From the IMG/VR virus record IMGVR_UViG_3300037517_000296, positions 1 through 31,684 of that record: a stretch of 31,684 nucleotides of DNA, one strand, 5' to 3'. The position numbers were made by a program, and so were the translations under genes. Numbering within the stretch: position 1 is the first letter of the stretch; every line of letters starts with the position of its first letter. The DNA is from a virus. The notes beneath the pieces are model-generated. The model was not told the origin of the DNA. It was given only the letters and a program-made list of their open reading frames with translations, and made no database searches. Below, in pieces: positions 23,819 through 28,488 of the stretch.

Positions 23819-24916
23819 TTATAACTCAATCGCCTTTTGCGATGCAAGCACAATATCCTGCGCTGTTATATTCCGCAGAGCATTGCACCAGTATTGCGTC
23901 TTGGGAGTTTTGTTGGTCGCATCCTTACACTTGGCCTGTGGCAGCCCAGCGTGTGGACGGCAAGGCGCGTGCGGACAGGTATCGGGCTTGAATATCGATA
24001 CGTTCTTAGGGTAAAAACTAACACGATCTTTTGGATCGTAACTTCCCCACAACGACACACACGGCGTATCCAACCCAGCAGCCATGTGATTGACACTGCT
24101 ATCTGGCGCGACAACAAAGTCAGCCCCGCTGATAATCGGGAACAGCGAGCGCACAGCCTTAGTACAGTTAAATAGGTCAATCACTCGCGGATGATCCACC
24201 TTAAAGTTGTTTGAGTTATCCAGCCCAATAATCACAGCGTGATGTTTGGGGTAAGCCTCAAGCAACGCCAGCACCGCCTCCTGCCCCATCGTTGGCGGGT
24301 AGGTTCGGGTCGGACCAGAACTGCTGACATGATAAGCAAAGAACGGACTAGGCAACGGCCACTTGCCCATCGCCTTTAGTTCATCGTGGTCTGGCTCAAT
24401 GAGATGTAGAACTGGCTTACAATACTTCGCCATAGTCTTTTCGTCCCATACACCCATCCACTCATAGATCCGCTGGTAGCAGTTGCCACCGCCAGTGCCT
24501 AACTTCGTGTTGCCAACCTGCCCGCTGAACAGATCGTCAGTAGGTAGGTGTGCGTCAAATGAATCCCAAGCCTCCAGCGAGGATGGCAACGGCCACAGCT
24601 TTGCACCCAGCCCAGCGTAGAGAGGTAGGTTACGAGCAGGAGCGTAAACCTCCACAACCCCACCCGACTCCTGCACCAAGTAGTTTACGAAGGCAGTAGC
24701 AATGATCGCGTCACCAATTGCACCAGCGCGGTAGACGGCTGTTGCACCACCAGCAGCACGCCCTTTGTAGTACGGCTTGATCTTGTGCGGACAAGGGATT
24801 GAATCGTCCCAAGTTGGTCCAGTTAGCTCATCGGGCAGCACATAGGTAGTGCGCGGGTAGAGCATGTTGTCATCGACCTTGTGAATTGCGTTAGTGTTAT
24901 TTGTCCATAGTTTCAT
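23819..24916 (-). CDS. GT9-like glycosyltransferase
   Basis: 365 aa from ATG 24916. AGAGGAGAAAACC and the ATGA overlap with the upstream membrane protein gene favour this start over 25030. The N-half has AVYRAGAIGDAIIATAFVNYL (GT-B nucleotide-binding loop region) and the C-half has VVAPDSSVNHMAAGLDTPCVSLWG (residues 268-291), the signature of heptosyltransferase-family GT9 enzymes. Residues 314-344 carry four spaced Cys (C314, C319, C330, C344), unusual for GT9 and possibly metal-binding. Donor and acceptor are unknown: host LPS, virion, or DNA. Confidence 0.8.
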   Translation of the reverse strand: MKLWTNNTNAIHKVDDNMLYPRTTYVLPDELTGPTWDDSIPCPHKIKPYYKGRAAGGATAVYRAGAIGDAIIATAFVNYLVQESGGVVEVYAPARNLPLYAGLGAKLWPLPSSLEAWDSFDAHLPTDDLFSGQVGNTKLGTGGGNCYQRIYEWMGVWDEKTMAKYCKPVLHLIEPDHDELKAMGKWPLPSPFFAYHVSSSGPTRTYPPTMGQEAVLALLEAYPKHHAVIIGLDNSNNFKVDHPRVIDLFNCTKAVRSLFPIISGADFVVAPDSSVNHMAAGLDTPCVSLWGSYDPKDRVSFYPKNVSIFKPDTCPHAPCRPHAGLPQAKCKDATNKTPKTQYWCNALRNITAQDIVLASQKAIEL

Positions 24917-25047
24917 TTGGTTTTCTCCTCTATAATAAAGAACACAGCAAGAATCGCTGTGACTACTGTGATAACCGCAATGGCAACAAGAAGCTTTCCT
25001 ATTGCCAATCCTGCTCCGACAACGATCCAATCGTATAGTGCGCTCAT
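24913..25047 (-). CDS. 44-aa membrane protein
   Basis: After YDWIVVGAGLA the sequence is one long hydrophobic helix (about residues 8-39, GKLLVAIAVITVVTAILAVF) with a basic end. AAAGG lies 8 bases before ATG, and ATGA couples it to the glycosyltransferase gene. It lies between the C5 methyltransferase and GT9 genes. A membrane partner for the glycosyltransferase is possible but unproven. Confidence 0.6.
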   Translation of the reverse strand: MSALYDWIVVGAGLAIGKLLVAIAVITVVTAILAVFFIIEEKTK

Positions 25048-25060
25048 TTGGCCTGCCTTT

Positions 25061-26536
25061 CTATTTTGTTTTTTCTACTGCGTCAATCCTTTTCCCAATC
25101 CAAGCCATGCACGGCACGGCCATAGAGTTACCAAGAGCCTTGTATCGCGGACCATCGGGGCATTGATCGGCTGGCTTGTTACGCCAAGGAATTAGCGTGT
25201 GATCGTCTGGAAAGCCTTGCAGTCGTTCGCATTCTCTCGGTGTGAGCCTGCGTACTGCCATTCGGTTATCACTAACCGCCACCTGATTATCCCCCATCTC
25301 CTTCCGCAATGTCGGAGATAGTTCTTTTACAAATCTGCTCTCGTTGCCTTCTCTAGTTGCAATGCCAGGCTCAAAGGCAATCGCCTCCTGCACCAACGGC
25401 ACATTCCCACCACCAGTTCCATATCGTGATACGCAACTAGGAGCGACATCGTGTGGGCCAGTTACTCGGCTGTCGTTGGGGTGGTTTTCGTAGAGGACAA
25501 CCTTGACCTCAGTATCGCCAGCCTTTGTGTTTGCCTTGAGAGTTGGGCAAACAGATTTCTCGGTTAGCTTTCCTGTAAGTCGAAGCTCGGAAGTTTGAAA
25601 AGCAATTGCGTGCTTGTCTCCTTTAGTTAGGGTGGGCGCAGGATCACCTGGCTTACCCACCCCAAGTCCATTTCCCTTTCCGTCTTGCTTGTTACCACGC
25701 TTGCCAGCGTTGCGTGTGGCTTGATCGTGGATTGGGATTGGAAAGTAAAAACTTTCAGCTTGTTGCGTCAGTTGTTTGCCAACTTGTTTTGCTAGTCCGC
25801 AGTCAATCGTTGCACATACATCTGGTATGCCAGCGTTAATCGCTTCGTGAACTGCCTTAATCTCCATCAAGGCTTCGTCACTACATCCTCCTCGGCTCCC
25901 TTTGCACTGGGTGATTGTTGGACTAACTCCAACGCCTGCTTCAACATCGGTGGCAACTCCTTTCCGCGTTTCTCTGCTCGGCGGAGTATCCCTGCACACG
26001 CTTTCGGACTCAAATAAAACCTTTGCGGCAAGGTTCCCTTCTCCAAGATGTGCGACAACGAACACACGTCTGCGTCTTTGGGCCACTCCGAACCATTGAG
26101 CGTCCAAGACTCGGTATGCCCACTCATACCCCAGCTCCCCCAACGCTCCGAGGAAGGAACCAAAATCTTTTCCTCCGTTAGATGACAAGACACCAGGGAC
26201 ATTTTCCCAGACAAGCCATCGAGGTTTGAGACGTTCAGCGATCCCAAGGTACGTAAGCATAAGATTACCTCTGGGGTCTTTGAGTCCTTGCCTGAGTCCT
26301 GCGACTGAAAAGGATTGGCAGGGTGTGCCTCCGACCAGAAGGTCAACTGATCCGCTTTGTATATTCCATTGTTCATATTTACTCATATCTCCTAGGTTTG
26401 GTACTTTCGGCCAATGATGCTTCAGCACCGCTGACGGAAATGGCTCTATTTCTGAAAACGCAACTGGCTCCCATCCGATAGGCTCCCAAGCCTTGGACGC
26501 TGCCTCAATGCCAGAACATACGGATAGGTACTTCAT
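25061..26536 (-). CDS. C5 cytosine DNA methyltransferase
   Basis: 491 aa. Motif I SVCSGIEAAS is at residues 5-14, the catalytic Cys73 lies in GTPCQSFSVAG (70-80), motif VI is ENVPGV (111-116), motif VIII is QRRRR (153-157), then RECERLQGFP (434-443) and motif X GNSMAVP (469-475). All catalytic elements are present. The 160-420 region (target-recognition part) is long and carries low-similarity sequence. It methylates cytosine C5 in a specific sequence, perhaps to evade restriction or as step one of hypermodification. It overlaps the upstream small gene by ATGA. Confidence 0.93.
   Translation of the reverse strand: MKYLSVCSGIEAASKAWEPIGWEPVAFSEIEPFPSAVLKHHWPKVPNLGDMSKYEQWNIQSGSVDLLVGGTPCQSFSVAGLRQGLKDPRGNLMLTYLGIAERLKPRWLVWENVPGVLSSNGGKDFGSFLGALGELGYEWAYRVLDAQWFGVAQRRRRVFVVAHLGEGNLAAKVLFESESVCRDTPPSRETRKGVATDVEAGVGVSPTITQCKGSRGGCSDEALMEIKAVHEAINAGIPDVCATIDCGLAKQVGKQLTQQAESFYFPIPIHDQATRNAGKRGNKQDGKGNGLGVGKPGDPAPTLTKGDKHAIAFQTSELRLTGKLTEKSVCPTLKANTKAGDTEVKVVLYENHPNDSRVTGPHDVAPSCVSRYGTGGGNVPLVQEAIAFEPGIATREGNESRFVKELSPTLRKEMGDNQVAVSDNRMAVRRLTPRECERLQGFPDDHTLIPWRNKPADQCPDGPRYKALGNSMAVPCMAWIGKRIDAVEKTK
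25867..26376 (-). CDS. 169-codon ORF embedded in the C5 methyltransferase gene, alternate frame
   Basis: This frame lies wholly inside the methyltransferase catalytic region (its codons 54-223) on the same strand but a different frame. ATG 26376 is the first start after an in-frame TGA three codons back, and AGGAG lies 12 bases upstream. The sequence is not composition-random. It contains FWSEAHPANPFQSQDS, LSGKMSLVSCHLTEE, SSERWGSWGMSGHTESWTL, and a C-terminal RFYLSPKACAGILRRAEKR then GKELPPML. I recall near-identical words in stand-alone phage proteins annotated beside or inside C5 methyltransferases. The function is unknown; it may be a translated overlapping gene. Confidence 0.5.
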   Translation of the reverse strand: MNNGIYKADQLTFWSEAHPANPFQSQDSGKDSKTPEVILCLRTLGSLNVSNLDGLSGKMSLVSCHLTEEKILVPSSERWGSWGMSGHTESWTLNGSEWPKDADVCSLSHILEKGTLPQRFYLSPKACAGILRRAEKRGKELPPMLKQALELVQQSPSAKGAEEDVVTKP

Positions 26537-27095: not shown

Positions 27096-27722
27096 TTATG
27101 GTTGTTCCGACTTGTGAAGATCATAATAAAACGAATCCGTATCCTCCGTCACCCACTTGTCACTCTGATTCTCCACGGATGGAAGGTCGGTATCAACCCG
27201 AAATTGCTTGAGATTATCGGGCAACTTCTTGGTAACCCAATTACTATCCCGCCAGAAGATTCGATTGTTCGGCATGCAAAGTAAGTAGCCATCATCACCA
27301 GCGAATACATGACCGCACTTGTAGTCTGACGGCTCATCGCTGTAGGGATTGTTAAACCAATCCACAGTAAATAGGTATGTACCCCAAACCTTGGTCGCAT
27401 CCCTAAGTAGTATCTGTGCGCGGTGGTAGGCCAAGAAGCTGTACTCGGTCACGGTTACATTCTCAGAGAAGCAATCCCAAAGCTGTTTGTAGTTGAATGG
27501 GATGTCGGACTCTGGCTCGTGAGTGTATATCTCCGATAGGGGTACTCGACTCCGCAGCATTCCAGAGTCAGTCATAACGTGGAAGGTTAGGATTGCACCA
27601 GCGCAAGATTGCAAGGCGAAGACGTAGACGTTGTAAAACTCCTTGTCCGACTCGTTCTTGGTGAAAAACGACTTCCTCACCATAGCCTTTAAGCTAGGGA
27701 TGTTCTCGTTGAGCGTTGCCAT
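27096..27722 (-). CDS. Conserved phage protein of unknown function
   Basis: 208 aa from ATG 27722, which overlaps the previous stop (TAATG). It has alternating beta strands and paired aromatic residues: SFFTKNESDKEFYNVYVF, ILTFHVMTDSGMLRSRVP, LFTVDWFNNPYSDEPSDYKC, and an acidic ending VTEDTDSFYYD. I recall similar proteins in many aquatic phage genomes, always unnamed. No catalytic motif is visible. It follows the 2OG oxygenase gene and may function with it. Confidence 0.7.
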   Translation of the reverse strand: MATLNENIPSLKAMVRKSFFTKNESDKEFYNVYVFALQSCAGAILTFHVMTDSGMLRSRVPLSEIYTHEPESDIPFNYKQLWDCFSENVTVTEYSFLAYHRAQILLRDATKVWGTYLFTVDWFNNPYSDEPSDYKCGHVFAGDDGYLLCMPNNRIFWRDSNWVTKKLPDNLKQFRVDTDLPSVENQSDKWVTEDTDSFYYDLHKSEQP

Positions 27723-28294
27723 TATCGCCAAGCAGGTCCAGTAAACCAAGCCACCAACACCCAGCGCGTACCCCAGATAGGCGCACGCGCACGATGCTCT
27801 AGGTAGGATGGAAACCAGCAGCCTGCTCCTTGCTCGCGGACGAACTGAGCGTTCTCCATATCAGCCTTAACCTGCAACCCTCCTCCGATATACTCCTCTG
27901 GCGCGGACAGGTTCACCACAGCCGTAAGCTTGCGAACTGGTGCTTCGGATGTGTAGGTGTCCCAATGCCAGGAGAACTTCTGTAGTGGGCGGTAGCGCAG
28001 GATCTGCAACTGTTGGATGCCCTGAATGTCGAATCGCCATTGCTCGGCATTGATGCCGTCCGTAATCTCGCGCATAATATTGTAGATCCAGTTATAATGC
28101 TTGGCATACGGAATCCAGCACGATGAGCAGGTTCGCGTACGTGATACCGTACGTGTTACTCCATCCTTCGATAACACTGGCGCACGCTTCATCCCGATCA
28201 CTTCTGCATCCTGGCGCAGCATCTCACACTGCGTCTTGGTCAGGACGTAGCGATCTACTGATGCGGTCAATACCTTCTGCTTAAACTCGGTCAT
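27722..28294 (-). CDS. 2OG-Fe(II) oxygenase (prolyl-hydroxylase-like)
   Basis: 190 aa from ATG 28294 (ATGA overlap with the gene before). The metal-binding facial triad is His110-x-Asp112 in FSWHWD with distal His167 in YLEHRA, and Arg177 in GTRWVLVAW would bind the 2-oxoglutarate carboxylate. LQILRYRP and NLSAPEEYIGGGLQV complete the double-stranded beta-helix pattern of P4H/PKHD enzymes. It hydroxylates a substrate with O2 and 2OG. The substrate is unknown: protein in most relatives, or modified cytosine given the neighbouring genes. Confidence 0.82.
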   Translation of the reverse strand: MTEFKQKVLTASVDRYVLTKTQCEMLRQDAEVIGMKRAPVLSKDGVTRTVSRTRTCSSCWIPYAKHYNWIYNIMREITDGINAEQWRFDIQGIQQLQILRYRPLQKFSWHWDTYTSEAPVRKLTAVVNLSAPEEYIGGGLQVKADMENAQFVREQGAGCWFPSYLEHRARAPIWGTRWVLVAWFTGPAWR

Positions 28295-28488
28295 TTGAGT
28301 TCCTCGCATAGTTCCAGCAACGCCTTGTTCAAAGCGTACTCAAAGCAAGCCATCTTATCTTTAGCCAAGTGCTGACGGCCAGCCCTTGCCAACGCCTCGT
28401 AGAGATCATCGTCGACATCGATCATTACCCTTACGGATTCTTGCTCTAATGTTTTTACCAGAGTTATCTTTCTGTTTTTCTTTTTCAT
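28291..28488 (-). CDS. Small RHH-like or antitoxin-like protein
   Basis: 65 aa from ATG 28488, which shares ATGA with the upstream gene. A basic start (KKKNRKITLVKTLEQESVRV) and a body MIDVDDDLYEALARAGRQHL then helical end resemble ribbon-helix-helix regulators. It could be a transcriptional repressor of the operon or an antitoxin relic. No toxin partner is obvious. Confidence 0.55.
   Translation of the reverse strand: MKKKNRKITLVKTLEQESVRVMIDVDDDLYEALARAGRQHLAKDKMACFEYALNKALLELCEELK

Follow-up and report, generated by a model that had tools for sequence, protein, structure and literature searches.

The cytosine-C5 DNA methyltransferase (MTase) M.EcoHK31I consists of two polypeptides, alpha and beta, of 309 and 176 aa, and beta is read from another frame inside alpha. 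In M.EcoHK31I the second polypeptide alone is reported to hold motif IX, and that of M.AquI, also a two-polypeptide enzyme, carries motifs IX and X (PMC3404938). In eukaryotes the cytosine MTase Dnmt1 is held at the replication clamp PCNA, and the same source gives QL(S/D)LF as the bacterial clamp-binding consensus (PMC9690074). Nested genes and two-polypeptide C5 MTases are both known kinds of arrangement. For a conserved nested gene with a clamp-like start across a large phage MTase clade we found no description in open-licence PMC, and no paper on an overlapping gene in phage C5 MTases was found there, which given the restriction to open-licence articles is weak evidence of absence.

We compare with these systems a locus in a viral sequence of 31,684 nucleotides (IMG/VR record IMGVR_UViG_3300037517_000296), referred to as a whole as the window. 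It contains, at 25061..26536 on the minus strand, a gene for a 491-aa C5 MTase that matches PF00145 (E 9.5e-54), the dcm family TIGR00675 (E 4.9e-53) and phrog_116. Its membership among the cytosine-C5 DNA MTases rests on these matches and on motif IX (VRRLTPRECERLQGFPDD, 25202..25255, minus strand) and GNSMAVP, which lie in the MTase frame; motif IX is not in the nested frame described below. Profile positions 653-864 of phrog_864, labeled "DNA primase," also match the window MTase, and that cluster may hold primase-MTase fusions or be mixed. Elsewhere in the window, PHROG matches identify head, portal, terminase, primase and exonuclease genes. By eye, the ORF at 27722-28309 (minus strand) resembles a 2-oxoglutarate/iron oxygenase (HxD, then a distal His and Arg), and the 403-aa ORF downstream of the MTase (23819-25030, minus strand), which is without a PHROG match at 1e-5, resembles a family 9 glycosyltransferase.

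Within the MTase gene, an ORF of 169 codons plus a stop (25867..26376, minus strand) runs in the +1 frame, one base 3' of the MTase frame, as had been noted from the letters alone. The in-frame stop claimed three codons before its first ATG (26374..26376) and the AGGAG claimed 12 bases upstream of it were likewise found: the stop is a TGA at 26383..26385 that arises from the GDM segment of the MTase and bounds the ORF upstream, and the Shine-Dalgarno-like AGGAG lies at 26389..26393. The eight closest loci listed, which come from six contigs, share both ATG and AGGAG; the spacing of 12 is longer than usual. Our designation of this ORF as a nested overlapping gene rests on the frame itself and on the family-wide coding evidence below; no Pfam or NCBIfam family matched its product. 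The original prediction had also held that two words of that product, LSPKACAGILRRAEKR and GKELPP, coincide with conserved segments of the MTase. This proved wrong, as the MTase frame is variable there except for a short LFE, and the MTase under both words is largely predicted to be disordered.

Like M.EcoHK31I, the window thus pairs a C5 MTase with a second, smaller polypeptide, but the window and most of its relatives have a complete MTase and a nested protein lacking motif IX. The window lacks the mark of an M.EcoHK31I-type beta, motif IX in beta and absent from alpha; relatives of the type of L284 show it, their second polypeptide alone having motif IX. When 198 genomes of the family of G019 were searched for an EcoHK31I-type system, 11 matched, and none of the core matches tabulated ran on through motif IX.

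A tblastn search of the 169-aa translation against 50,697 phage records matched 193 of them, and features named methyltransferase, methylase or dmt overlie 53 of the 60 matches listed. At each of 11 loci inspected (P1 dmt, Enterobacter CobraSix, mycobacteriophage Phoebus, Caulobacter DMCA, two Vibrio, Sinorhizobium, Providencia, Rctr41k and two gut phages), the match and the annotated gene are offset in the same way, with the match in the +1 frame. Two kinds of query gave larger sets of loci: the nested core yielded 80 viral and 80 genome loci, in each scan the 80 best among some 550-600 candidates, and MTase queries with MTase-motif search patterns yielded 240 viral loci. By profile, the nested core is in the +1 MTase frame in 79/80 viral, 79/80 genome and 234/240 MTase-selected viral loci; because the MTase queries were built from loci bearing the nested frame, the last figure describes the phage MTase clade only. 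Stops in this frame in related MTase genes would have refuted the prediction; the frame is present in these 234, and the six misses among the 240 are four contig ends, an indel in L398 and L392, whose second protein lies outside the overlap; across all three sets the misses are contig ends (L017, L373, L383, L386 and L387), one-base shifts (L121 and L398) and L392. L388, whose core is moved by a one-base shift, is counted among the 234 on a weak 22-bit partial match. At L388, L398 and L121, the shift is at or near a G-rich run and moves both frames together; assembly error, decay and phase variation are all possible. In a further 80 core-selected loci, 76 show the +1 overlap, the others being L411, which is the same contig as L392, and L442, L446 and L448, in which the core, judged by coordinates alone, departs from the usual frame relation. 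Some contigs are shared between sets; a deduplicated set of 275 phage and prophage loci (<85% DNA identity), 163 of them MTase-selected, served for part of the analyses below.

The nested frame was found in 12 of 30 C5 MTase loci from 21 trait-carrying genomes. These 12 score at least 157 bits against a phage-clade MTase profile, and the 18 without it score at most 90 bits; judged by these profile scores, the nested frame is a trait of one phage and prophage MTase clade, not of C5 MTases at large. According to host names and record titles, the phages and prophages that carry it have hosts in many bacterial phyla. In phage P1, dmt (L001 2746-3237) carries the nested ORF with an ATG at 2764 and GGAG seven bases upstream, and this ORF is absent from the features listed for AF234172. 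With the nested protein of L284 as query, 529 plasmid records matched, 449 of them from Escherichia; most are inferred from size and annotation to be P1-like. Among the loci examined, in each scan the top 80 of some 550-600 candidates, there was no standalone copy far from any MTase; the nearest to one are L392, L547 and gp104 of phage Thibault. Five candidate de-overlapped copies (H94, H96, H97, H98 and H103) were rejected, as their coordinates are those of ordinary +1 nested cases in all five.

Part of this family is probably present already in an existing database. The profile phrog_16143 (139 aa, "DNA methyltransferase") matches residues 32-125 of the nested protein (hmmscan, E 1.5e-12) and 7 of the 12 members of alignment A1, one row of which is in the MTase frame. 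Because of these matches, some nested ORFs have probably been called as genes and gathered in PHROGs as part of phrog_16143, with a label that names the overlapping enzyme and gives no separate function.

Long spurious +1 ORFs are common in conserved genes, and one reading of the locus is that there is no second protein, the frame being held open by the amino acid and codon constraints of the MTase or by a constrained RNA element. To assess what the MTase imposes, synonymous codons were drawn at random with the MTase protein kept, 20 draws per locus. The segment of motif VIII does bias the +1 frame, and the shuffles score a mean of 13.9 bits (maximum 56.7) with the nested profile, but the real loci score a mean of 99.4 bits (minimum 20.4). 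All 235 of 235 loci, not deduplicated, outscore all 20 of their own synonymous shuffles, with a mean excess of ~85 bits, and the core region stays open in only 18% of the draws.

The pattern of conservation is that of a protein read in the nested frame. Just after MTase motif VIII the nested proteins share a core of consensus LSxKACxGILRRAxxRGKxLP, and past this motif the DNA of the 275 loci conserves the +1-frame protein over the MTase frame, with the codon-position pattern inverted. Five residues of the nested profile are kept almost without exception (L32 275/275, G54 273/274, R58 273/273, P67 270/272 and L70 272/272). Under all five, the entropy of the MTase third position is near zero, and that of the MTase first position is 1.6-1.9 bits under G54, R58, P67 and L70 and 0.55 under L32, which sits in motif VIII. 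Over profile columns 46-74, the mean entropies of nested codon positions 1, 2 and 3 are 0.86, 0.68 and 1.57, respectively. Of 29 core columns, 14 fall below 0.5 bit when read in the nested frame; the MTase frame has only 1 such column, the +2 frame has none and the three antisense frames have 5, 0 and 0. The zero count of nested-frame stops in this six-frame control is partly by construction, the rows being profile hits in open frames. An RNA element in place of a protein was rejected because nested codon positions 1 and 2 are conserved and position 3 is free.

Synonymous codon identity relative to expectation, measured in sampled pairs with <62% MTase identity, is 0.96-1.16 at MTase columns 0-115 and 1.15-1.27 at columns 120-135 (ENVPG), and reaches 1.7-2.1 at columns 140-150 and 1.5-1.6 at columns 175-185 (motif VIII), with single columns up to 3.5; at columns 155-170, insertion columns with few sequences, it is 1.05-1.17. 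We also compared substitution classes in the core with a neutral expectation in 52 independent close pairs. Changes silent only in the nested frame occur at 2.30 of neutral (222 observed, 96.6 expected), those silent only in the MTase at 0.60 (56 observed, 93.8 expected) and those silent in both frames at 6.0 (15 observed, 2.5 expected); nested stops number 3 against 15.4 expected. In these close pairs the tighter constraint is on the nested frame in the core and on the MTase over motif VIII. The original prediction would have failed had synonymous changes in the MTase freely disrupted the nested frame; they do not, the ratio of 0.60 contrasting with 2.30 for the converse. It left open whether two proteins are co-selected or a single conserved stretch of DNA is read in two frames; the data settle this for a second protein under its own selection.

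The shuffles, the close-pair substitution classes and the six-frame entropies rule out a chance ORF produced by MTase constraint, and purifying selection in the second frame beyond what the MTase imposes, one criterion for a conserved overprinted gene, is shown. Copies that have left the overlap and have no MTase frame beneath them, described below, also count against the absence of a second protein. We therefore regard that reading as already refuted, unless the alignments are artefacts, and give it next to no weight. That the nested frame is a real coding gene we hold to be very nearly certain, on sequence grounds and without peptide or ribosome-profiling data.

By sequence, the nested gene has its own translation start. 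An ATG with a 4-base Shine-Dalgarno sequence (SD) in the open nested frame upstream of ENVPG is present in 160 of the 250 loci that entered this count from the set of 275, against 7% in the null. The MTases fall into two classes, class B being those with an insertion and the window belonging to class A, and the figures are 88/156 against 3% for class A and 72/94 against 12% for class B. In class A the starts are concentrated at MTase columns 57-64 and 89-90, and in class B at columns 104-111. The remaining 90/250 loci lack an ATG with SD by the criteria used; between the upstream stop and the conserved part, 11/273 loci have no ATG and 2/273 have no ATG, GTG or TTG. Nested proteins usually have 120-186 aa (5-95% range, with lengths filtered to 100-230 aa).

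Loci without an ATG leave room for a different route to the core, namely ribosomal frameshifting near motif VIII to give a truncated MTase with the core as its tail. The core begins right after motif VIII, and loci such as L388 show that a single base shift suffices for the fusion. Against it, the SD and ATG sites are far above the null and clustered at few places, constraint on the nested frame rises well upstream of motif VIII, and an N-terminal motif (see below) lies a few residues from the SD starts. We consider frameshifting very unlikely and conclude, from sequence alone, that the nested gene is in most loci initiated separately within the MTase coding sequence.

Structure models were examined for both proteins. 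Alignments of the family included A7 (105 of 110 nested proteins plus the window, without L068, L162, L285, L300 and L409), A8 (102 nested proteins plus the window, also without L006, L008 and L319) and A12 (45 of 135 eligible MTases). The AlphaFold2 model of the nested protein is confident only in the core, with pLDDT of 94-97 in blocks 121-150 and an overall pTM of 0.39. This conserved C-terminal core (residues 107-155, 25912..26058, minus strand) has predicted helices at 107-112, 124-137 and 143-154. The middle of the protein, which shares its codons with MTase motifs IV-VIII, is of low model confidence. The AlphaFold2 model of the MTase is for the most part confident as far as residue 178 or so and drops to pLDDT <50 at residues 179-216 (25889..26002, minus strand). 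This stretch, predicted to be disordered, carries the codons for nested residues of about 126-163 and thereby for most of the nested core. As disorder in the MTase underlies the confident nested core, predicted order in one protein largely falls on disorder in the other; the exception is the short nested helix 107-112, which overlaps ordered MTase.

Foldseek searches with the nested model returned nothing at E <1e-3 in PDB or BFVD, and the core profile found no relative among PDB sequences at E up to 10. The best BFVD match of the model, at E 1.4e-3, is Thibault gp104 (81 aa, hypothetical), which has the same core; it differs in its N-terminus and in its position downstream of an HNH insertion within a broken MTase gene. 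A resemblance to sigma-factor domain 2 (VIA-align, best Z 5.0) was set aside as within the range common for unrelated models.

N-terminal of the core, many nested proteins carry a short motif resembling the bacterial clamp-binding consensus. We searched 274 of the 275 loci with the pattern Q..[LMI]F or Q[LMI][STDAN]F[WLF] and found it in 110 (class A 75/164, class B 35/110), compared with expectations of 1.3 loci from the synonymous null, 4.1 from shuffled peptides, 2 from reversed sequences and 2 from the C-terminal part. After clustering of the MTase proteins at 60% identity it is present in 15/42 loci. The matches comprise 34 peptides and 75 DNA encodings and include the canonical QLSLF and QLDLF as well as QLTMF; some proteins have MQLSMF-like starts, and L003 begins MTSDQLDLF. 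In the 110 loci the motif lies within 3 residues of an SD start in 58, 4-12 residues away in 32 and further in 5, with no SD start in 15. The strict form QL[SDT][LMI]F was not found in any of 409 MTase-frame ORFs. The pattern is absent from 164/274 loci, and no clamp-like motif was seen in the EcoHK31I-like L284, L285, L300 and L303 (by pattern) or L287 (by eye). In the window the corresponding QLTFW (nested residues 10-14, 26335..26349, minus strand) is a non-canonical form of QL[SD]LF, and P1 has MQLTT.

The choice of pattern was post hoc, since the motif had been noticed in the same sequences before it was counted; despite this, the excess over the nulls is steep and the motif occurs in both start classes. 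It has probably arisen more than once, because the two start classes differ in their position within the MTase. For canonical motifs, binding to the clamp (DnaN) is a likely inference for which there are no binding data; as an inference from the motif, it is strong for the family and weak for the QLTFW of the window.

Whether the nested protein has to do with the MTase at all is best judged from loci in which the two genes are rearranged. In the 275 loci, the C-half of the MTase is in the MTase ORF in 207, in the nested ORF in 9, in a separate ORF in 42 and undecided in 17. In L284, L285, L287, L300, L303 and L258, the MTase ORF consists of motifs I-VIII, a variable region and motif X, and motif IX follows the core in the nested ORF. 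In L107, L240, L126 and L294, the nested ORF comprises the core with motifs IX and X. In L392 and L547, the MTase N-half ORF stops short of the core, under which no MTase-like frame runs, and the second ORF contains an N-terminal part (QLTLPG or QLMML), the core, a variable region and motifs IX and X. An AAGGAG precedes the ATG of L547 by nine bases. L548, a nested relative, starts MSGAAEQLTLF. L547 is the weaker of these two de-overlapped cases, being an unverified faecal scaffold in which the MTase N-half is shortened by an integrase-like ORF. Among the Rctr41k-like MTases L251-L330, many are split and have their C-half in an ORF of its own, the commonest place for which is the +1 frame (+1 frame 19/80, frame 2 6/80, frame 0 4/80, nested ORF 7/80). 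Six of the rearranged loci (L107, L240, L126, L294, L392 and L547) resemble M.AquI in that the second polypeptide has motifs IX and X; unlike in M.AquI, that polypeptide also has the core and sometimes the clamp-like motif, and it usually overlaps the first. Mainly because it is found fused to the C-half of the MTase, and also from its nesting, we infer with rather more than even confidence that the nested protein acts together with the MTase.

The fusions also bear on the possibility that the nested frame encodes a phage effector which binds the clamp but has no tie to the MTase, for example one that slows or redirects host replication, and which came to be overprinted on this gene by chance. 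The N-terminal clamp-like motif would suit such an effector, and in Mycobacterium phage Thibault (L491 3512-5340), where the MTase is broken by a frameshift and the insertion of an HNH endonuclease, the core survives as the annotated gp104, with another N-terminus and no motif; this may reflect either a function independent of the MTase or recent decay. An unrelated effector would not be expected, however, to lie nested in the MTase of one clade in nearly all loci examined or to be fused to MTase C-halves in L392, L547, L107 and L240, nor would its core be universal and its motif not. We judge this explanation improbable.

The nested protein might alternatively be a beta subunit in the sense of M.EcoHK31I, required for folding or catalysis of the MTase, with clamp binding in a minor role or confined to certain lineages. 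No part of the nested protein is more conserved than the core, and in the L284-type loci the same core precedes a motif IX that, in L284, L285, L287, L300, L303 and L258, is in the nested ORF, as is reported for M.EcoHK31I (PMC3404938). Yet 207/275 MTase ORFs have their own C-half, so that the nested protein cannot supply it there, and the N-terminal clamp-like motif would need a separate reason. We regard a beta subunit of this kind as unlikely, though not negligible.

The explanation that we prefer overall, with moderate confidence and with the function inferred, is a nested gene whose product would act as an accessory subunit and tether the MTase to the host replisome. A separately initiated gene, overprinted on the phage C5 MTase gene, would encode a protein whose C-terminal core docks on the MTase and whose N-terminal motif docks on the host sliding clamp. 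As a beta-type accessory subunit, the product would hold the MTase at the replication fork, and new phage DNA could be methylated there before restriction enzymes arrive. This complete tether model is a best guess that we put at about an even chance, in the absence of peptide, ribosome-profiling or binding data. The likeness to Dnmt1 and PCNA is confined to the proposed function, a cytosine MTase at the replication clamp; here the putative clamp motif is on the separate product of an overlapping gene, and it resembles the bacterial beta-clamp consensus, not the PIP box.

The findings point to a conserved gene, mostly unannotated, inside a common phage gene, including that of the textbook phage P1, whose dmt carries the nested frame, which is therefore testable in a laboratory phage. 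Given its occurrence across many host phyla, it would be an old same-strand overlapping gene with good support. More tentatively, with the chances somewhat against it, phages may practice an overlooked form of replication-coupled cytosine methylation, a counterpart of Dnmt1-PCNA in which one stretch of DNA encodes both an MTase and a clamp-binding adaptor that rides the host polymerase clamp. If so, it would be spread over phages of Proteobacteria, Firmicutes and Actinobacteria and would have escaped notice because nested frames are thrown out by annotation programs. Should the clamp reading hold, it suggests a way for replicating phage DNA to be methylated fast enough to escape restriction, and the second polypeptide of M.EcoHK31I may be one end of a wider family.
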